Assembly: GCA_027624075.1 (NCBI GenBank)
Contig: JAQBUH010000011.1
Span: 1-64,000 of the forward strand
Origin: Chloroflexota bacterium
Lineage (GTDB): Bacteria; Chloroflexota; Dehalococcoidia; Lucifugimonadales; Lucifugimonadaceae
Length of the DNA stretch: 64,000 nt
Direction of reading: 5' to 3'
The notes under the pieces: generated by a model
Told to the model about the DNA's origin: nothing
Databases searched by the model: none
What the model saw: the letters and a program-made list of their open reading frames with translations, nothing else
Translations under genes and position numbers: made by a program
In this document: piece after piece, positions 13,788 to 24,520 of the stretch
Position numbering within the stretch: the stretch's first letter is position 1
How the letters are laid out: each line of letters starts with the position of its first letter

Positions 13788-14378
13788 ATGGACACAGAGT
13801 CCGAGTTTGAGCTGGTGAGCCGGGTCATCAAGGCCCGGCGGACAGTCCGCGCGTTTACAGCGGACAAAGTGGCGGACTCGGACATCTCGGAGGTGATCGA
13901 GACCGCCGTGTGGGCGCCAAACCACCGGATGACGGAGCCGTGGCGGTTCTACGTGCTGCGAAATGGCGGCGCAAAGCGGGCCGAGGTGGCGCAGCTAATC
14001 TACGACTGGACGGTACGCAACACGCCCAACCCGAACCGTAAGGAGAGCGCAGCCGCCGAGGCGCGCGATGAGTTCCTGGACGCGCCTGCGCTCATCTACG
14101 CGTATTCGCTTCCGGGGCCGAACGCTGAGATCACGGAAGAGAACTACTCAGCCACCTCATGCGCGGTCCAGAACCTCATGCTCTCGGCGCACGCTAAAGG
14201 GCTGGGCGTTGGCTGGTCGACCGGCAAGGCGTGCAAGCCTGCGGAGTTGGCGACTTTGCTCGGCGCAGACGAGTCATGGAAAATAGTCGGGTGCCTGTTC
14301 ATCGGATACCAGGCGCCGCCAGTGGTCCCAGTCGTCCCGGTAAGGGCGCCCGCGCCCAGTGTCACAAGCTGGCAGTAG
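13788..14378 (+). CDS. Nitroreductase-family FMN oxidoreductase
   Basis: 196 residues. The FMN-binding N-terminus appears as KARRTVRAFTADKV and the conserved AVWAPNHRMTEPWRF motif. The helix ATSCAVQNLMLSAHAKGLG and WKIVGCLFIGYQ close the fold. It is nearest to the small YdjA-like subgroup that uses NAD(P)H to reduce nitro or quinone compounds as a homodimer. The gene follows the MarR regulator with a GGGAG ribosome binding site and is probably co-transcribed with it. The last ~20 residues are Pro/Val/Ala-rich and may be a flexible tail. Confidence 0.86.
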   Translation: MDTESEFELVSRVIKARRTVRAFTADKVADSDISEVIETAVWAPNHRMTEPWRFYVLRNGGAKRAEVAQLIYDWTVRNTPNPNRKESAAAEARDEFLDAPALIYAYSLPGPNAEITEENYSATSCAVQNLMLSAHAKGLGVGWSTGKACKPAELATLLGADESWKIVGCLFIGYQAPPVVPVVPVRAPAPSVTSWQ

Positions 14379-16904: not shown

Positions 16905-17330
16905 TCATGTTGCTGCGGACGTGAGAGTAGCGGACGTGCGGGATGGCAGCGGGAATCGGGATGGCAGCGGGAATGAAGAAGGCCACGGTCTTGTCCGGTA
17001 GATGTTGTATGCAATGCCCAGGAGGAGTGCTTGGAGGACCTGGGTACGCAACGAGCGGCCGGGCGCTTTGAGCGAGAGCTTCCTCTTGATGATGGAGAAG
17101 ACGCATTCGACCAGGGCTCTCTTGCGGTACTGCTCAACCGGAAACTGCCGGCGCATCTGGAGCCGTGCGCCCCTGACCTTCCAGTCCTTCTTGCCCCTCT
17201 TGGCCGGAATGATTGCCCTTGCGCCAAGAGCGCACACCTGAGTGTGGTTCTTCTCACTGTCGAACTCGGCGTCGGCGAGCACCAGCCCGAAGCGTCTCTT
17301 TGTGAATGCAGAATCCACCAGCGGCCTCAA
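16905..17330 (-). CDS. Transposase, C-terminal part (second D and catalytic E)
   Basis: This frame encodes LRPLVDSAFTKRRFGLVLAD, then AEFDSEKNH with the second catalytic Asp, IIPAKRGKKDW, and RKRALVECVFSIIKRKLS with the catalytic Glu. It lies in the -1 frame relative to the upstream half. The last ~30 residues are read from the inverted repeat and from short GGGATGGCAGC-type repeats. Alone it would be inactive. No canonical X-XXY-YYZ slippery heptamer is present in the overlap, so I favour a frameshift mutation over programmed frameshifting. Confidence 0.75.
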   Translation of the reverse strand: MRPLVDSAFTKRRFGLVLADAEFDSEKNHTQVCALGARAIIPAKRGKKDWKVRGARLQMRRQFPVEQYRKRALVECVFSIIKRKLSLKAPGRSLRTQVLQALLLGIAYNIYRTRPWPSSFPLPSRFPLPSRTSATLTSAAT

Positions 17331-17926
17331 GATCGCCGAGCCCGGGTACCCGCTTGCGGGTGAGGCCCCTTCTTCTCAAGGAGCTGGCGGAGCCGGGCCA
17401 TCTGCCCCACCACCACGAGTCTCCCGGTGTCCACAGCCACAAGCCACTTGAGGTAGTGGGGCCAGGCAGAACCCTTTCCGCGGTCTCTGGCCCTCTTCAC
17501 ATGAAATGTGTTCACACTCCCGGGAAAGAGTCCGGTCCCGTCCACGGCGACCACCGCTCCGCCCGAAGGCGGGGGCGGCAGGCGGCCAGTGATCTCAGCC
17601 AGCACCCGTTCGATCATCTCTTCGCCAAGCCTCTCATTGAAGAAACGGTGCAGCGTGACGTGGTCAGGGACGCGGCTCAGGCCGAGCGCCGCCCGCAGTT
17701 CGCTGTGCTCGGAAAGCCTCACCTGGGCCTCTCTGAACGTCCAGTCCTCATAGCGCATCAGGCAGAGGATTGACAGCAGCTGAGGCTGGGTGAATACGTG
17801 TTTGGAGAACTTGCTCCGGCAGGGCGCTACTGAAGCAGAAGTCACCTCAAGCGCAAGATGCGCGAACCGCACAAGTCCTACTTCTGCCATGGCCAGGAAC
17901 CTCCTCAATCCTGACCACACCCTCAA
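17327..17926 (-). CDS. Transposase, N-terminal part (first catalytic D)
   Basis: The frame begins near the right inverted repeat and contains an N-terminal helical DNA-binding region (FTQPQLLSILCLMRYEDWTF, then SRVPDHVTLHRFFNERLGEE) of the IS4/IS5 type. The first catalytic Asp lies in GGAVVAVDGTGLF. It terminates after KKGPHPQAG, where the homologous protein should continue into the -1 frame (ILRPLVDSAF). Residues up to ARLRQLLEKKGP are normal family sequence; the last dozen are out of frame. Confidence 0.78.
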   Translation of the reverse strand: MRVWSGLRRFLAMAEVGLVRFAHLALEVTSASVAPCRSKFSKHVFTQPQLLSILCLMRYEDWTFREAQVRLSEHSELRAALGLSRVPDHVTLHRFFNERLGEEMIERVLAEITGRLPPPPSGGAVVAVDGTGLFPGSVNTFHVKRARDRGKGSAWPHYLKWLVAVDTGRLVVVGQMARLRQLLEKKGPHPQAGTRARRS

Positions 17927-17987: not shown

Positions 17988-18312
17988 GATAGTTACTTAG
18001 ATGCTGCCGCGACCTGCAGCATTACCTTCAGTTCGAATCTGAACGGTGTAATTGTGTACATGCGTTCAGCATGACACGTATCCCAGCCGCGCACCCATCG
18101 ACAAGCTCAGAATGGCGACTCAGAATCTCTCGGCTAATCGTATCCAAACGGTGAGATCCCTCGGCCCGCAAGCGGGTGCCCTGCGTCCGGGATGACAAAT
18201 CCCGGGAGTCACTCTCCCTCAAGAAAAAGGAAGATGCTCTCCCGCCAGGTCGTTCAGAATGCCCGCGCCTGAGCCGTCCCGCGCTCAAGCCGCTGTGCGC
18301 CGCCTCGAAAAA
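17988..18312. other. Intergenic stretch right of the insertion sequence
   Basis: No gene is recognised. Most of it is a degenerate copy of the dispersed repeat family (see the repeat at 18070-18230); the remainder is unassigned. Confidence 0.5.
18070..18230. repeat. Dispersed repeat element, copy E (degenerate)
   Basis: It shares GACTCAGAATCTCTCGGCTA, GGTGAGATCCCTCGGCCC and GGGATGACAAATCCCGGGAG with the other copies, but its ends are not well preserved. It lies about 80 bp outside the right end of the insertion sequence. Confidence 0.6.
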
Positions 18313-18621
18313 CTACATCAGGCCCGGTATGTTCAGGCCGCCTGTGATCGCGCCCATCTTGCTGGTCGCCTCCCTGGAGGCGGCGTCAAGCGCATCGTTC
18401 ACCGCCGCCGCGACAAGGTCCTGAAGCATCTCGATATCATCGGGGTCGACCACCTCGGCGGCGATCGTGATCGACTCGACCCTGTTTCCGCCCTGCACAA
18501 CCGCTTTCACAACACCTCCGCCTGCGCTCCCTTCTGTCACAGCCTGCGCCAGCTCCTCCTGGACCTCTGCAAGCCTGCGCTGCATATCCTGTGCCTGCTT
18601 CAACATCTTGCGGTTCATCAT
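18313..18621 (-). CDS. ybaB: YbaB/EbfC-family nucleoid-associated protein
   Basis: 102 residues, the usual length. An N-terminal long helix (NRKMLKQAQDMQRRLAEVQE) is followed by a beta sheet with GGVVKAVVQGGNRVESITIA and a C-terminal helical stretch with LVAAAVNDALDAA. Members form tweezer-like dimers that bind DNA without strong sequence specificity. In many bacteria the gene sits between dnaX and recR; here neither is present. It lies between an insertion-sequence/repeat region and a REP array. Start is ATG 18621 or 18618. Confidence 0.88.
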   Translation of the reverse strand: MMNRKMLKQAQDMQRRLAEVQEELAQAVTEGSAGGGVVKAVVQGGNRVESITIAAEVVDPDDIEMLQDLVAAAVNDALDAASREATSKMGAITGGLNIPGLM

Positions 18622-18840
18622 GGCGCGAACTCCTGTTGCGGCCCGGTTCTGGGCGATTCTTGGCCGGTCATCCGGGTGCAGTGGCCGGTCTCAACGGACG
18701 GCGGTGGTTGAATATGAGCCAAGTTTAGAGGTTTTTCCGGTCAGGCGCGGCCAGCCGGTCAGGAGGGTCCGAGATTGACTCATTGAACGCGGCCGGACGC
18801 CGGCGTTATGGCATGGGGACGATATGCAGCGCCCCGGTTT

Positions 18841-18902
18841 TGGTAGGGGCGCCGCTTGCTGCGCCCGTTCTCCGGGTGGGGGCGCCGCTCGCCGCGCCCG
18901 GA
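18841..18902. repeat. REP-like palindromic array, left of the RAYT gene
   Basis: Two related units: GGTAGGGGCGCCGCTTGCTG followed by CGCCCGTTCTCC, and GGGTGGGGGCGCCGCTCGCC followed by GCGCCCG. Each contains an imperfect palindrome of the GGCGCCGC-n-GCGCC kind. The same units occur in the opposite orientation at 19476-19540, on the other side of the transposase gene. Confidence 0.75.
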
Positions 18903-18913
18903 ATGCCCGGTAG

Positions 18914-19465
18914 TCATTCAATTCCGCCACGCTGCCGGACGCCGGCCTGTTCCAGCGTCTTTAGTCCGTTATACACAACGTAGTGCCGGGCCTGCTCCAA
19001 CTCCCTCTCGTTGCGGATCACGCGCTCGTAGTAACCGCGCTGCCAGACCCTGACTCCGGACCGGCCGAGACGCCGGTTGATCGCACGGGCTGAAATCGAC
19101 TTGAATGCCCGGACCACGTCACCGAGCGTCGTCTCGCTCTGCCTGAGGATCCCGACGATCAAGTGGGCATGGTCTGGCTGCACGTTGAACGCGTCGGTCT
19201 CAATGCCGGCAAAGCGTTTCGGAAGTCCATCCCACGATGACCGGACCAGCTTTCCGCATGCTGTTTGATATGTGACGGTTTCGTAGACGACGGAGAGCGC
19301 CGGAACGCCACTTGCCGTCCTGACCGTGACGAAGTAATAGCCGGGAGACGAGTAGTCGTATCCGGCGAGCCGGGTGCTTTTGCGGTTCAGTGACGGTGTG
19401 TGTGGATCGCTCACCGTGGCAGAGTCACACAACAGCTTCCGCAGTTCAAAATACCGGTGGCGCAC
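18914..19465 (-). CDS. REP-associated tyrosine transposase (RAYT, Y1_Tnp)
   Basis: 183 residues; the start is uncertain and an internal start near residue 20-25 is possible. Signatures of the Y1/IS200-like HUH family are present: SSPGYYFVTVRTASG at the N-terminus, the metal-binding HUH motif in VQPDHAHLIVG, and a C-terminal helix with the candidate nucleophile Tyr in VWQRGYYERVIRNEREL. RAYTs are single-copy domesticated relatives of IS200/IS605 that are thought to mobilise REP palindromes. Here the gene is flanked on both sides by inversely oriented REP-like units, the expected layout of such a module. Confidence 0.88.
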   Translation of the reverse strand: MRHRYFELRKLLCDSATVSDPHTPSLNRKSTRLAGYDYSSPGYYFVTVRTASGVPALSVVYETVTYQTACGKLVRSSWDGLPKRFAGIETDAFNVQPDHAHLIVGILRQSETTLGDVVRAFKSISARAINRRLGRSGVRVWQRGYYERVIRNERELEQARHYVVYNGLKTLEQAGVRQRGGIE

Positions 19466-19475
19466 CGACGGAGCT

Positions 19476-19540
19476 GGCGCTACGCGCCCGGGCGCAGCAA
19501 GCGGCGCCGCTACCAGGAGAACGGGTGCGGCGAGCGGTGG
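19476..19540. repeat. REP-like palindromic array, right of the RAYT gene
   Basis: CGGGCGCAGCAAGCGGCGCC followed by GCTACC (19489-19514), then AGGAGAACGGGTGCGGCGAG followed by CGGTGG (19515-19540), are reverse complements of the two units at 18841-18902. A short hairpin GGCGC-TAC-GCGCC precedes them at 19476-19488. Confidence 0.75.
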
Positions 19541-19577
19541 TCTCTTCCTGCCTGGACAGAAAACAGCCTGCGGCCTA

Positions 19578-20864
19578 TTACAGGCTTCGCAGTCGCGGGT
19601 AGATCGCCATCACAAGGGCTATCACCGCCAGGCATCCCGCGCCGAGGGCCATGTAGCCCGCGGAAACGCCGCGCTGGTCTGCGATGAATCCTGCGCCGAG
19701 CGCCGCGACAGGCATCAGTCCTGTGTCCAGCAGCGTCGTGGCGATCACGCGGCCGCGCATGTGGTCGGGCGTCGTCTCCATCAGGATCGTCGTGTTCATG
19801 GCGCGGAACGCCGTTTGCGACACGCCGACCAGGATCATGAGCGGGAACGCCAGCAGCAGCATGTCCAACCGTGCCGCGCCTGCGAACCCGAACAGCGCAA
19901 GCGCGTAGAAAAGCGTCGACACGACCATCAGCTTGCCCTTTGCGCTGATGCTCGTGCGGGAGGCGATGATCAGCCCGCCCGTCAGTCCGCCGATTGCGCC
20001 GACCGAGATGATGTAGCCGATCATGCTGGTGTCGTAGCCGAACTCGTCCACCAGTTGTGGCAGCAAAGTCTGGTGCGCAAACCCTATCGAGAGCGGCGCC
20101 ACGCCAAGCAGCACAAGCGCGAGGACCATGCGGTTGGCCGCCATGTAGCGGAACCCTTCCATGAGCTGGGCGACCGGGCTGACTGTGGAACGCGGGCCTA
20201 CTTTTTCCGGCATGTTGATGCGGGTTGTGAGCCAGATCACGACTGCGTATGCAATGGCGGACCAGACGTATGCGGCGCCTGTGTTGGTGATGGCGATAAC
20301 GAACGCGATGATCGCAGGGCCGACGAGGCGGCTGCTGTTCATGGCGATCGAGTTCAGCGTGAGCGCATTGGTCAACTCGCTCTTCGGGACAAGGTTCGGG
20401 ACGATCGATGTGCGCACAGGCTGGTTGAGCGCCATTCCGCCGCCAAGGCCGACCGCAAGGACGTAAACGTGCCATAGCTCGATGGCGTTTGCCAGGATGA
20501 GCACCGCCATGATGGCGTGCATGGCGAGGCTCCACGCCTGGATGACCATCAGAAGCCGCTTGCGGTTGAACCGGTCTGCGGCGACGCCGCCGAAGATGCC
20601 GAACACAAGCATCGGGACCGCTCTTGCGCCCAGGACTCCGCCGACCGCGGTGGAGGATTCGGTCAGCTCCCACACAAGCACGCCACGCGCCACCATGTCT
20701 GCGTGCATGGCGGTGGCAGAGGTGAGTTGGCCGAGCCACAGGTAGCGGAAGTCGCGGTTGGCAAGGGAGCGGAACGCTGAAGAAAAGCCGGACCGGACCT
20801 TTGGCGGGCCGGTCAGCTCAGCAGGCTGTTCGGTGATCGTGGTTGCCACGCCGGCAGCATACAC
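19578..20864 (-). CDS. MFS transporter, EntS-like exporter
   Basis: 428 residues with about twelve hydrophobic segments. The N-terminal SLANRDFRYLWLGQLTSATA and the loop motif GGVAADRFNRKRLLMVIQAW are typical of the MFS_3/enterobactin-exporter branch, which exports siderophores, drugs or metabolites by proton antiport. A second signature, TTPDHMRGRVIATTLLDTG, marks the C-terminal half. The start is GTG at 20864 or in-frame GTG 20849; neither has a strong ribosome binding site. Its start lies 34 bp downstream of the stop of the LLM oxidoreductase, so co-transcription is likely. Confidence 0.88.
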   Translation of the reverse strand: MYAAGVATTITEQPAELTGPPKVRSGFSSAFRSLANRDFRYLWLGQLTSATAMHADMVARGVLVWELTESSTAVGGVLGARAVPMLVFGIFGGVAADRFNRKRLLMVIQAWSLAMHAIMAVLILANAIELWHVYVLAVGLGGGMALNQPVRTSIVPNLVPKSELTNALTLNSIAMNSSRLVGPAIIAFVIAITNTGAAYVWSAIAYAVVIWLTTRINMPEKVGPRSTVSPVAQLMEGFRYMAANRMVLALVLLGVAPLSIGFAHQTLLPQLVDEFGYDTSMIGYIISVGAIGGLTGGLIIASRTSISAKGKLMVVSTLFYALALFGFAGAARLDMLLLAFPLMILVGVSQTAFRAMNTTILMETTPDHMRGRVIATTLLDTGLMPVAALGAGFIADQRGVSAGYMALGAGCLAVIALVMAIYPRLRSL

Positions 20865-20897
20865 CCGGCCGGTATGGCAGCCAGATCATTTCGCGAT

Positions 20898-21839
20898 TTA
20901 AACCCGTCCCACAATGTCGTCTGCGAACAGCTTGATGGACTCCGCCTCTTCCTTGTACGGGAACACGACCATGAACTGCGTCACGCCGAGTTCCGTGTAG
21001 CGTTTCAGGAGGCCTTGCGCCTCGCCTGTTGTGCCGACGAAAGCACGCGACCGCTTCGACCGCCACTCGTCCGGCGACATGCCGTCTCGTCGCGCCACTC
21101 GCTCGAGGCGGGCCTGGACTCCCGCGTCGTCAGCGCCGATCAGCATCGTCAGAAAGTGCGTCTTGCGGATCCGGTCGAAATCACGGCCCTCTTCCGAGCA
21201 GATCTCCTCGAGACTGGCCAGCGTCTCGGCGTAGGCCTTGACGTCCGGTTGCGGCACGAAGTTCACCGTGTCTGCGTACCTGGCCATGATCCTGAGCATC
21301 CGCGGCCGGGAGCCGCCGATCAGCACAGGCGGATGCGGGGCCTGGACTGGCTTCGGAGCTGCGACGGCGCTTTTCACCGAGTGGTATTTGCCGTCGAATG
21401 TCGTGACCGGCTCGGTCCAGAGGCTCTTTATGATCTGGACGGCCTCCTCAAGCTGGCTGACGCGCTCGCCGGCAGACGGGAACCGGTAGCCGTATGCCTG
21501 GTACTCGACATCCTTCCAGCCGGCGCCGATGCCGAACTCGAGGCGTCCGCCTGAGACCCGGTCGAGCGACGCCGCCATCTTCGCCAGGAGCGCCGGGTTC
21601 CTGTACGAGGCGCAGGTAACGAGCGGGCCGATCCGGATGTCCTTCACCTCAACCGCGATGGCGGTCAGGAGGGTCCAGCACTCCAGGCAGTCGCGGTCAG
21701 GCTCGCCGTCGTTGAGCATGAAGTGGTCAGAGGCCCACATCGAGTTGAACCCGTTGGGTCTGAGGGACCGCGCCAGCCCGGCGACATCCTCGTAGCTGAA
21801 GCCGAATGACGGCTCAATCTGCAGACCGAAACTTGTCAC
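20898..21839 (-). CDS. LLM-class (luciferase-like) flavin/F420-dependent oxidoreductase
   Basis: 313 residues, TIM-barrel luciferase-like monooxygenase. Typical blocks are NSMWASDHFML (strand 2), IRIGPLVTCASYRNPALLAK, LEFGIGAGWKDVEYQAYGY, and PHPPVLIGGSRPRMLRIMAR near residue 170. These proteins use FMNH2 or F420H2; the cofactor cannot be settled here, though F420 is common in Chloroflexota. GTG 21839 is preceded by GAGGTGAAC. It overlaps the 3' end of the upstream HEAT-like gene by 26 bp, so the two and the MFS gene probably form one transcript. Confidence 0.87.
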   Translation of the reverse strand: MTSFGLQIEPSFGFSYEDVAGLARSLRPNGFNSMWASDHFMLNDGEPDRDCLECWTLLTAIAVEVKDIRIGPLVTCASYRNPALLAKMAASLDRVSGGRLEFGIGAGWKDVEYQAYGYRFPSAGERVSQLEEAVQIIKSLWTEPVTTFDGKYHSVKSAVAAPKPVQAPHPPVLIGGSRPRMLRIMARYADTVNFVPQPDVKAYAETLASLEEICSEEGRDFDRIRKTHFLTMLIGADDAGVQARLERVARRDGMSPDEWRSKRSRAFVGTTGEAQGLLKRYTELGVTQFMVVFPYKEEAESIKLFADDIVGRV

Positions 21840-22623
21840 CGTTCACCTCGTAGTTCTGCCGTATCTCCGCATACGGCCGTGAGCGTTGAACGGTCTCCCA
21901 CGCCACGCCTTCAAGCCGTCTGACCGTCTCTACTTGCAGCCCGGTTGCGAGCGACACCTGCTCCAGCGTGAAGGGGTTGCTTGCGCTGGCGCGGGCGCTG
22001 CCGCCGGTCGAGCCGGATATGCCGAGCCGCAGCGCCATGATCGTCGCCATTTCTCCGGGGACTGAGCGCACGGCCACTGCGGTGAACGCCCGCGCCGCGG
22101 CCGGCGAGAGGGACCGGGAGTGGCCGTCGATGGCCCTGAACAGGCGGTCCATAGTCTTTGTTCGCCCCATAACCAGCAGCCTGAACGCGTGCAGCGGCTC
22201 ACGTTCCGGCGCCTCCAGAGTGCGCACATGGTCAAGCGCAATGCTCTCCAGCGACATCCAGCCTGCGCGGTCGCGGCTCTGCCTGAGCCCGTGCACGGCG
22301 ATCTCCCATCCATGCGGGTCGTCCTGTTCAAGAAGGGCTCGCAGCGCCGCAATGGCGTGACGGTCGCCGAGCGCGCCGAGTGCCGCCGCCGCCGCCGCCC
22401 GTCGCTCACCCGTCTCTTCGCTGTTAAGTATGGCGCTGAGCAGCCTCACCGAGCCGGAGTTTGCGCCTCCGAGTTCGTCTGCGACCCTGCGCAGGTGGCC
22501 GGCCTCGTCCTCGCGGTCGGTTTTGCCCAGTGGAGCCTGGTTGTGTTGGGCCTGCTGAGATTTCGTGGCGGACGCATCCTGTCTGAGGCTTGATATGTCA
22601 GGCTGGTTAATCATGGAGCACAA
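21814..22623 (-). CDS. HEAT/armadillo-like helical protein, function unknown
   Basis: 269 residues, start at ATG 22623 or 22611. The central part (about residues 60-130) shows HEAT-type helix pairs, e.g. RRAAAAAALGALGDRHAIAA and LESIALDHVRTLEAPE. The C-terminal 60 residues contain FTLEQVSLATGLQVETVRRL, which looks like a helix-turn-helix, and end in a basic region. It may therefore be a regulator or adaptor. It overlaps the LLM oxidoreductase gene and starts close to the divergent hydroxyacid dehydrogenase. I do not recognise a named family. Confidence 0.65.
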   Translation of the reverse strand: MCSMINQPDISSLRQDASATKSQQAQHNQAPLGKTDREDEAGHLRRVADELGGANSGSVRLLSAILNSEETGERRAAAAAALGALGDRHAIAALRALLEQDDPHGWEIAVHGLRQSRDRAGWMSLESIALDHVRTLEAPEREPLHAFRLLVMGRTKTMDRLFRAIDGHSRSLSPAAARAFTAVAVRSVPGEMATIMALRLGISGSTGGSARASASNPFTLEQVSLATGLQVETVRRLEGVAWETVQRSRPYAEIRQNYEVNGDKFRSAD

Positions 22624-22748
22624 TAGTGCCGACTTATCGCAGACCGTTCAACTGCGCTTGCCGCGTCTTGAACGGCCCGGCGGTGGCTCAGGCGGCTCGG
22701 CGGCGGCTCAGGCGACTCAAAAGAGAAAAATTCAATCCGGAGATACTA

Positions 22749-23735
22749 ATGTCGAAGATCACCGCGGCGTTCCTTGGCTACCGTGACGAGTGGGAGATCG
22801 AGCGGATTCGCTCCGCCGTCCCAGATGACGTTGAGGTCGTCGGCGTGCCGCAGGACCCAATAGAAACAGTACAGGAACGGGGCGCTGAGTTGGCGCTGGC
22901 CGCTGAGGTAGTCGTTCCGTGGCGGTTTCGCGTCACGCCCGAACTTGCGGAGTCGCCGCGGCTGAGGCTGGTGCAGGTGTTGAGCGCAGGCACCGACTAC
23001 CTTCCCAAGAAGGAGCTTCACGAGCACGGCGTCCTGGTGGCCGGGAACAACGGCGCCAACTCGGTGGCCGTCGCAGAGATTGCGATCATGCTGATGGTCG
23101 GCGCAAACCGCCACGCGCAGGAGCAGATCCGCAACCTGCAGTCCGGCAAGTACCACGGCGACTTCTTCGAGACGTGGGAGCAGTACCACGAGATCACTGG
23201 CAAGCGCGTCGGCATCATCGGCCTTGGCAAGATCGGATCGAAGGTGGCGAAGCGGTTGCAGGGCTGGGACTGCGAGGTCGTCTACCACGACAGGCTGGAG
23301 ATAAACCCTGATGTTGAGACTGAGGCGCATGCGAAGCGAGTCTCGCTGGATGAGCTGCTGTCGACCTCGGACATCATCAGCGTGCATGTCCCTCTGACGG
23401 AGAACAGCCGCGGGATGATCGGCGACGGAGAGTTCGCGCAGATGAAGGAGTCGGCAATATACGTGAGCACCTGCCGCGGGCCGGTCACGGATGAGGCGGC
23501 GCTGATACGAGCGCTGGAAAATGGCGCGATCGCGGGCGCCGGTCTCGACGTGACGGAGATCGAGCCGATCGATCAGGACAATCCGCTGCTGAAGATGCGG
23601 AATGTGTTCATGACTCCGCACCTGGCGGGCTCGAGCATCGAGGCGCGGGAGAAGGCGGTGGATAACGCGGCCCGCAACATTGCGCTGCTATCGCAGGGCA
23701 AGCAGCCGCAGGGGCTGATCGACCCCTTCGAGTAG
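22749..23735 (+). CDS. D-isomer-specific 2-hydroxyacid dehydrogenase
   Basis: 328 residues from ATG 22749 (GGAG nine bases upstream). The NAD-binding motif GIIGLGKIGSKVAKRLQGWD is central. The catalytic triad is visible: Arg in YVSTCRGPVTDEAAL, Glu in AGLDVTEIEPI and His in FMTPHLAGSS. Members interconvert 2-oxoacids and D-2-hydroxyacids (glycerate, lactate, phosphoglycerate types); the short single-chain form without an ACT domain argues against full-length SerA. It is the only plus-strand gene in its neighbourhood. The LarA-like protein at 48 kb also acts on 2-hydroxyacids, but no direct link is visible. Confidence 0.9.
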   Translation: MSKITAAFLGYRDEWEIERIRSAVPDDVEVVGVPQDPIETVQERGAELALAAEVVVPWRFRVTPELAESPRLRLVQVLSAGTDYLPKKELHEHGVLVAGNNGANSVAVAEIAIMLMVGANRHAQEQIRNLQSGKYHGDFFETWEQYHEITGKRVGIIGLGKIGSKVAKRLQGWDCEVVYHDRLEINPDVETEAHAKRVSLDELLSTSDIISVHVPLTENSRGMIGDGEFAQMKESAIYVSTCRGPVTDEAALIRALENGAIAGAGLDVTEIEPIDQDNPLLKMRNVFMTPHLAGSSIEAREKAVDNAARNIALLSQGKQPQGLIDPFE

Positions 23736-24070
23736 TCTTCGTGGCAGGGCGCCTGGCGATGGACGGCGCGGACTGGCGGCGTGGCGAGCGGCGCCCCGCC
23801 AAACGCGCGCCGAACTCAATTCGTTCGAGAGGACGTGTGCGCCCGGGGTTCCCCCGGAGTTCGTAAGGAGTGCTGCCGTACCTGCCCGTACCGGCGCCTG
23901 TGGGCCTGCCCGCACACCCGGATTGAGGGATGCACCGTGCGCAGCCATGTCGCCGAAACTAGGCTTGAAATTCGAGGGGATAGTTAATAGCTACATCCAT
24001 ATCAACCTGCCCAGAAGCCGCCGGACGCCGTAACGACTGGGCCAGATTGGGCCGGGCCCGGAGTTAATGA
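23736..24070. other. Intergenic, REP-like unit near 23775-23805
   Basis: No gene is supported. GGCGGCGTGGCGAGCGGCGC followed by CCCGCC resembles the REP units around the RAYT gene. The short frame at 23781-23987 has several Cys and Arg residues but no family match. Confidence 0.4.
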
Positions 24071-24520
24071 ATGAACCGCGAAAACTCCAAGATCCTCAGC
24101 TTCTCTACCGGAGCGTCAGACCCCGTCCGGCACTCCGTCCTGCTGGTCGACGACCAGGAGGCGTTCCGCGACATCGCTCGTGACCAGCTCGCCACCGACT
24201 CCACCTTCCTGATTATTGGCGAGGCCGTTGACGGCGCCAACGCAATTGAGCTCACAGGCCGGCTGCGCCCGAACGTGATCGTGATGGACATCCAGATGCC
24301 TGACATGAGCGGCATCGAGGCTGCTCGTCACATCCTCAGGGACGATCCCGGCGTGCGCATTGTGCTCACAAGCATGGGCGACGACGCTGAGTACGGCCCG
24401 CTGGCGAGGGAGATCGGCGCATGTGGCTTCCTGCCGAAGCGCGAGCTTTCTGCATTGAGCGTGCATGCCCTGGTAGACGACTTCATGCCGCCGGCCGGCT
24501 CTGCCCGGATGGCTGCGTAA
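24071..24520 (+). CDS. Single-domain response regulator (receiver only)
   Basis: 149 residues, one receiver domain after a ~20-residue N-terminal extension. The acidic pair LLVDDQEA (D27, D28), the phospho-acceptor D73 in VIVMDIQMPDMSG, the Thr in RIVLTSMGDD and the Lys in GFLPKREL are all present, so it should be phosphorylatable. No output domain follows: it ends about 25 residues after the Lys, with a short tail. It precedes a histidine kinase (24864) and a second receiver-only protein (26655) on the same strand. Confidence 0.88.
   Translation: MNRENSKILSFSTGASDPVRHSVLLVDDQEAFRDIARDQLATDSTFLIIGEAVDGANAIELTGRLRPNVIVMDIQMPDMSGIEAARHILRDDPGVRIVLTSMGDDAEYGPLAREIGACGFLPKRELSALSVHALVDDFMPPAGSARMAA

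Follow-up and report, generated by a model that had tools for sequence, protein, structure and literature searches.

The region at positions 18842-19537 of a Chloroflexota contig (JAQBUH010000011.1) is very probably a REPtron, in which a single-copy RAYT (TnpAREP) gene is flanked on both sides by its cognate REP, which is GTAG-tagged and arranged in inverted arrays. It lies within the 64,000-nt stretch of DNA that was analysed, here called the window. The gene is flanked by REPs in opposite orientation, each a hairpin with a GT[AG]G foot, multiple further copies are dispersed in the same genome, if few compared with those of sister species, and the predicted protein has the Y1 core, with HUH motif and catalytic tyrosine, of a RAYT. 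Pairs of GTAG REPs and RAYTs are already known, and the locus therefore belongs to a known kind. The genome of the window is referred to below as G000 (2.3 Mb in 60 contigs, 89% complete), and three sister species as G002, G004 and G005.

The RAYT gene and its flanking repeats

The features of the locus and its surroundings are:

18313-18621: ybaB (PF02575), on one side of the RAYT gene
18842..18867, plus strand: REP unit 1, GGTAG foot and GGGCGC/GCGCCC hairpin (covariance model 40.4 bits, E 2.5e-10)
18875..18900, plus strand: REP unit 2, GGTGG foot, hairpin as in unit 1, head-to-tail with it (43.7 bits, E 2.6e-11)
18914..19414, minus strand: RAYT gene (TnpAREP-like Y1 transposase), 166 aa, likely GTG start at 19414
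19489..19514, minus strand: REP unit 3, GGTAG foot, one stem mismatch (GCGGCGC) (38.5 bits, E 9.7e-10)
19522..19537, minus strand: REP unit 4, truncated to the loop and 3' stem half, seen in the inverted repeat and the alignment
19578-20864: MFS transporter gene, on the other side of the RAYT gene
23778..23795, minus strand: resemblance to the REP stem core, no GTAG (covariance model, E 0.24)

The REP units consist of GGTAG or GGTGG followed by GGGCGC-loop-GCGCCC, that is, the canonical GT[AG]G foot and hairpin, with the consensus GGTAG-GGGCGC-YGCTYGCY-GCGCCC. A sequence-only reading of the window had described a Y1 transposase-like gene between inverted REP-like units, and both parts were recovered: an ORF (18914-19465, minus strand) and two inverted-repeat matches across it, one of 50 nt (18852-18901 against 19488-19537, 84% complementary) and one of 27 nt (18841-18867 against 19489-19515, 96%). 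Its statement that the same two units occur on both sides held for the opposite orientation and for the spacer GTTCTCC, common to the left and right pairs, but the order of unit types is not mirrored: from the outside towards the gene, the TTGCT-type precedes the TCGCC-type on the left, and the TCGCC-type precedes the TTGCT-type on the right. The outer right unit is also incomplete, having neither the 5' stem half nor the GTAG foot. Unit 3 sits 75 bp 5' of the likely RAYT start codon. At three or fewer mismatches, the 20-nt REP core has four matches in the window against 0.04 expected, and three of these are the RAYT-flanking units. No Rfam match was found in 18000-24200 up to E 0.1. At 14339-14367 on the plus strand, the REP model weakly matches (E 0.02) a REP-like hairpin that contains GGTAAGGGCGCC and GCGCCC. 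The left REP pair is bracketed by an 18-nt direct repeat (17/18 identical; 18787-18804 and 18929-18946), whose second copy falls within the terminal part of the transposase gene.

The open frame reaches as far as a GTG at 19465; the likely start at 19414 was inferred by alignment with the G004 protein. The product matches Pfam Y1_Tnp (35.7 bits, cut-off 23), and its best NCBIfam match is NF047646 (REP_Tyr_transpos, REP-associated tyrosine transposase; 66.4 bits, E 2.5e-18, equivalog cut-off 80). The IS200 model NF033573 gives 31.7 bits against a cut-off of 55. Solved structures gave weak sequence matches only, TnpArep 4er8 appearing at E 0.87. The protein carries the motifs PDHAH, VWQRGYYERVIR and YVVYNG, its HUH being HAH. 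The catalytic residues, which the sequence-only reading had expected in homologues, are indeed kept across 107 RAYT-related loci (some of them overlapping pieces of one gene), with H99 being H in 96/99 aligned letters, H101 in 98/99 and Y162 being Y in 95/95. The tyrosine motif is YVVYNG here and YVRFNW in G004, the N being kept and the P lost; the P of Y---NP is present in 89 of 95 homologues. Residues W141, Q142, E147, R148 and R151 were matched by eye, with conservation taken from the homologue alignment, to the GTAG contacts W94, Q95, E100, H101 and R104 of the E. coli protein (PMC6006769).

This gene is the single Y1 match in G000 (89% complete), which agrees with the label 'domesticated'. 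Comparison of the window and G004 genes by codon position gave 0.40, 0.35 and 0.61 over 178 codons, poorly aligned N-termini included, which may be a hint, but only a hint, of purifying selection on the two RAYTs. Counting against the REPtron reading are the NCBIfam RAYT score below its cut-off, YVVYNG in place of the class 2 Y---NP, and the small number of units in the genome.

In the window the RAYT gene adjoins ybaB, whereas in G004 some 15 kb separate it from ybaB and its neighbours are different. No empty site between ybaB and the MFS gene was found; in G002 these two genes are on separate contigs. Upstream of ybaB, G002 and the window share 30 identical nucleotides that reach window position 18737, which limits the changed stretch on the ybaB side. 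Elsewhere in the window (16905-17926, minus strand), another transposase is split over two overlapping ORFs in different frames, a DUF772 part and a DDE_Tnp_1 part, and is probably broken because of this split.

Dispersed REPs and related RAYTs

The dispersal that had been suggested from the sequence of the locus stood up to a genome-wide count: the 25-nt REP unit has 12 matches in G000 at two or fewer mismatches against none for a reversed control pattern, and the units are thus not limited to the RAYT locus. The unit at 23775-23805, offered earlier as the sign of dispersal, adds no evidence and was rejected as a dispersed REP, with only the stem core matching; the resemblance is probably chance or, at best, a decayed copy. 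At the same threshold there are 45, 49 and 78 matches in G002, G004 and G005, none in the other three species of the genus, and 1 to 5 each in 4 of 53 further genomes of the family and order. A covariance model built from sister-species copies, with up to 150 candidates scored per genome, gave matches at E<=0.01 of 15 in G000, 91 in G002, 50 in G004, 127 in G005, 3 in G003, 1 in G006 and 0 in G001; at 1e-4, 11 of 61 sampled family genomes had model matches, confined to two genera. The REPs of G000 are few and more varied than those of the sister species, which suggests that its REP population is declining. Close pairs seen in G000 are head-to-tail (C16 1707/1744, C48 7446/7542, C59 18842/18875), and REPINs, that is, two close inverted REPs as a dispersed unit, were not seen there. 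In G005, inverted REP pairs 362 nt apart at two places were considered as a long miniature element, which was ruled out because the sequences between the paired REPs differ. In G087, a Terriglobia MAG of another phylum (genome of L024), some of the pattern matches are units GTAGGGGCGCTGCTYGCTGCGCCC, whose core is that of the window REP.

A match to the RAYT protein is present in 13 of 60 genomes, that of the window included. The closest relative is in G004 (53% identical), where the gene has neighbours other than those in the window and is bracketed by GGTAGGGGCGCCGCTTGCTGCGCCC (plus strand) and GGTAGGGGCGCTGCTCGCTGCGCCC (minus strand), with the same core and the same inverted layout. More distantly related is a protein in G016 (38%), with three nearby copies of a GTAG hairpin whose sequence differs. 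Judged by sequence, the gene-repeat combinations of G004 and G016 look like cognate RAYT-REP pairs. More widely, GTRG hairpins occur within 600 bp of 55 of the 107 RAYT-related loci, for a total of 176, where a single shuffle of the flanks gave 18, and a GTAG-hairpin pattern has 19 to 494 matches in six other RAYT-bearing genomes, symmetric units counting twice because both strands were counted. A RAYT was not found in G002 (90% complete; 45 REPs) or G005 (74% complete; 78 REPs), which counts against the REPtron reading and against a strict link, since a genome can have abundant REPs and no RAYT in evidence; the sole Y1 match of G005 is strongly IS200-like (130.8 bits) and, by the protein search, not a RAYT. 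The layout read earlier as a REPtron thus draws support from the inverted REPs, the RAYT family matches and the G004 counterpart.

Could the region instead be a small autonomous insertion sequence of IS200/IS605 type, with the inverted REPs as its ends and moving whole? Inverted repeats do lie at both ends of 18842-19537, and the G004 relative stands among other neighbours, both as such an element would have it. The gene, however, is the only Y1 copy in the genome, the REPs are scattered without it, and the IS200 model falls well short of its cut-off; multiple near-identical copies of gene plus ends, the mark of IS200/IS605 elements, were not found in G000 (89% complete). An autonomous element is accordingly considered very unlikely. 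More improbable still is that the hairpins are ordinary transcript-end structures, either terminators or RNA stabilisers, that neighbour a Y1 gene by chance. GC-rich hairpins are common near gene ends. Here, however, foot, loop and stem sequence are conserved across species, the same layout surrounds a second RAYT in G004, and no T-run follows the hairpins among 111 REPs of four species, except for two G000 copies (L210) with TTTTTT directly after the REP. These 111, with identical copies merged, were picked by core match (three or fewer mismatches) from hand-chosen stretches of the match list.

Under the REPtron reading, and by analogy with studied relatives, the RAYT would recognise the GGTAG foot and GGGCGC/GCGCCC hairpin in single-stranded DNA, Y162 would cleave at a nearby pyrimidine-T site with H99 and H101 holding the metal, and REPs would thereby be copied or moved to other sites. 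In PMC8266576, TnpAREP is described as recognising the GTAG foot together with the hairpin when the DNA is single-stranded, with cleavage at CT. Directly 5' of the foot, the 111 REPs show a conserved T-[CT]-T, with T at -3 in 85, C or T at -2 in 107 and T at -1 in 87; CT occupies -2/-1 in 47.

A second hairpin in the sister species

In G002, G004 and G005, a second hairpin stands exactly one base beyond the 3' end of most REPs; it has an 8-bp stem, a 3-nt loop and GT...AC ends. With at least 7 of 8 pairs at offset 1, this geometry was found in 10 of 22 REPs of G002, 20 of 21 of G004 and 44 of 52 of G005, and in none of the 14 of G000; at each of the seven alternative offsets (0 and 2-7), the count was 0 or 1. 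The 74 good second hairpins have 27 different 5' arms, and GT...AC ends in 66. These counts leave out two of the 111 REPs, which are cut by contig ends. In a freer hairpin search, a score of at least 6 was reached by 54 of 109 3' flanks against 40 of 5450 shuffles, and by only 1 of 109 5' flanks. By genome, the 3' counts were 1/14 (G000), 11/22 (G002), 17/21 (G004) and 25/52 (G005). The difference between G000 and its relatives could reflect a gain in the sister species as an alternative to loss.

Pairing is kept while sequence changes. In a gapless alignment of 95 copies from the three sister species (89 distinct), 90.7% of cells pair, and both sides of a pair have changed in 173 cells, compared with 62 +/- 5 in shuffles, which do not keep the relatedness of the copies, and 37-56 in slid structures, which do. 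Such double changes occur at all 8 pairs of the second hairpin, while the first hairpin is nearly invariant, the exception being one C-G/G-C exchange in 6 copies. The test speaks for the three sister species only, because the 14 REPs of G000 were left out after the second hairpin was seen to be missing there. Pairwise identity in G002 is 0.965 for the REP core, a value biased upward because the REPs taken there are the zero-mismatch ones (22 of 45), compared with 0.56 for the second-hairpin arms, no two of which are alike in the 10 copies that form 7/8 pairs or more. These nearly all-different arms fit either rapid paired change or a pre-existing target hairpin.

As a general trait of RAYT-flanking REPs, the second hairpin was mostly ruled out: it was present in 7 of 176 units (107 loci), two of the seven being G004 itself, with a shuffle rate of 0.5%. 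The geometry was found once each at L075 and L077, and among the REP copies examined from other RAYT-bearing genomes it was seen in none except in G084.

Two explanations can be given. In the first, which is possible but less likely than not, the mobile REP of the genus would have two parts. One is a GTAG hairpin of constant sequence that the RAYT would recognise; the other, one base further on, is an 8-bp/3-nt hairpin of which only the shape would matter. While the element multiplies, this second hairpin would be replaced or altered in sequence without losing its pairing, as though snap-back copying rebuilt it during single-strand transposition. A target choice, in which the REP inserts beside a pre-existing hairpin that lies outside the element, seems somewhat unlikely. 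It would account for the G002 values, as if each insertion had met a different hairpin, and PMC3733652 describes GTAG-23 REPs of T. roseum inserted within small palindromes, at hundreds of unlinked targets. Yet the one-base offset, stem length, loop length and GT...AC ends are all fixed, and in G004 and G005 many copies have one and the same second hairpin. By reading, 49 sites of one stem type in G005 comprise 39 after a foot-bearing REP core, 7 after a decayed one and 3 with none; most follow a REP core, and the second hairpin thus travels with the element there.

Other repeat structures were noted in the sister species. In G004 the REP and second hairpin lie inside a composite repeat of about 170 bp that also contains other hairpins, CCCTCTCCCAGCTTGGGAGAGGG to one side and CTCCCTCCCTGNCAGGGAGGGAG to the other, seen at L155-L170 (the starts of 16 contigs) and also at L171-L173; many G004 contigs end inside this repeat, which therefore breaks the assembly. 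Variant REPs of G005 (e.g., L273, L279, L286, L290, L292, L298) have an enlarged, nested first hairpin, GGTAGGGGCGCGCCCG-N-CGGGCACCCGGCTGCGCCCG, followed by the usual second hairpins, as if first and second hairpins were exchangeable modules. Presumed intergenic stretches of G002, G004 and G005 such as L192-L204 are mosaics of other repeat families, e.g., around CCATCCTGAGCTTGTCGAAGG and CCTTCTCCCGCTGGGAGAAGG.

A RAYT-REP pair in which the REP core is unchanged while the protein has diverged to 53% identity is well suited to tests of recognition. In the sister-species repeats, one hairpin is constant and the other varies but stays paired; they could separate the part of a REP that is read as sequence from the part read as shape, and would let one ask how new hairpin sequences arise. 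If only ordinary selection is involved, they are a tidy but ordinary addition.

Comparison with known systems

According to Di Nocera et al. (2013, PMC3733652), GTAG REPs and RAYTs occur together in many phyla, including the Chloroflexi. With the GTAG superfamily described there and the class 2 RAYTs of Quentin et al. (2018, PMC6006769), the locus shares the HUH/Tyr core, the guide-contact residues W-Q...E...R, the opposite-orientation GT[AG]G hairpins that flank the gene, the dispersed REPs and the low gene copy number; it differs in having Y---NG rather than Y---NP, and HAH.

In the part of the literature covered, the exact two-hairpin form of the sister species was not found; related composites are nevertheless on record. 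PMC3733652 ties T. roseum GTAG-23 repeats to a short GC palindrome, CCGSSCC n3-4 GGSSCGG, and describes composites in P. putida and P. fluorescens, in hundreds of copies, that unite a degenerate REP with an unrelated stem-loop. Like these, the sister-species elements link a GTAG REP to a second short palindrome or stem-loop; however, the REPs of the published composites are inserted within palindromes or are degenerate, while in the sister species the second hairpin is wholly 3', one base away, of fixed size and free in sequence. The REPINs of Pseudomonas fluorescens (PMC3116915) likewise combine a conserved REP with a less conserved part that keeps its length and hairpin capacity by compensatory changes. 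A REPIN, however, consists of two inverted REPs around a spacer, whereas the sister-species element has a single REP and then a separate hairpin that lacks another GTAG.
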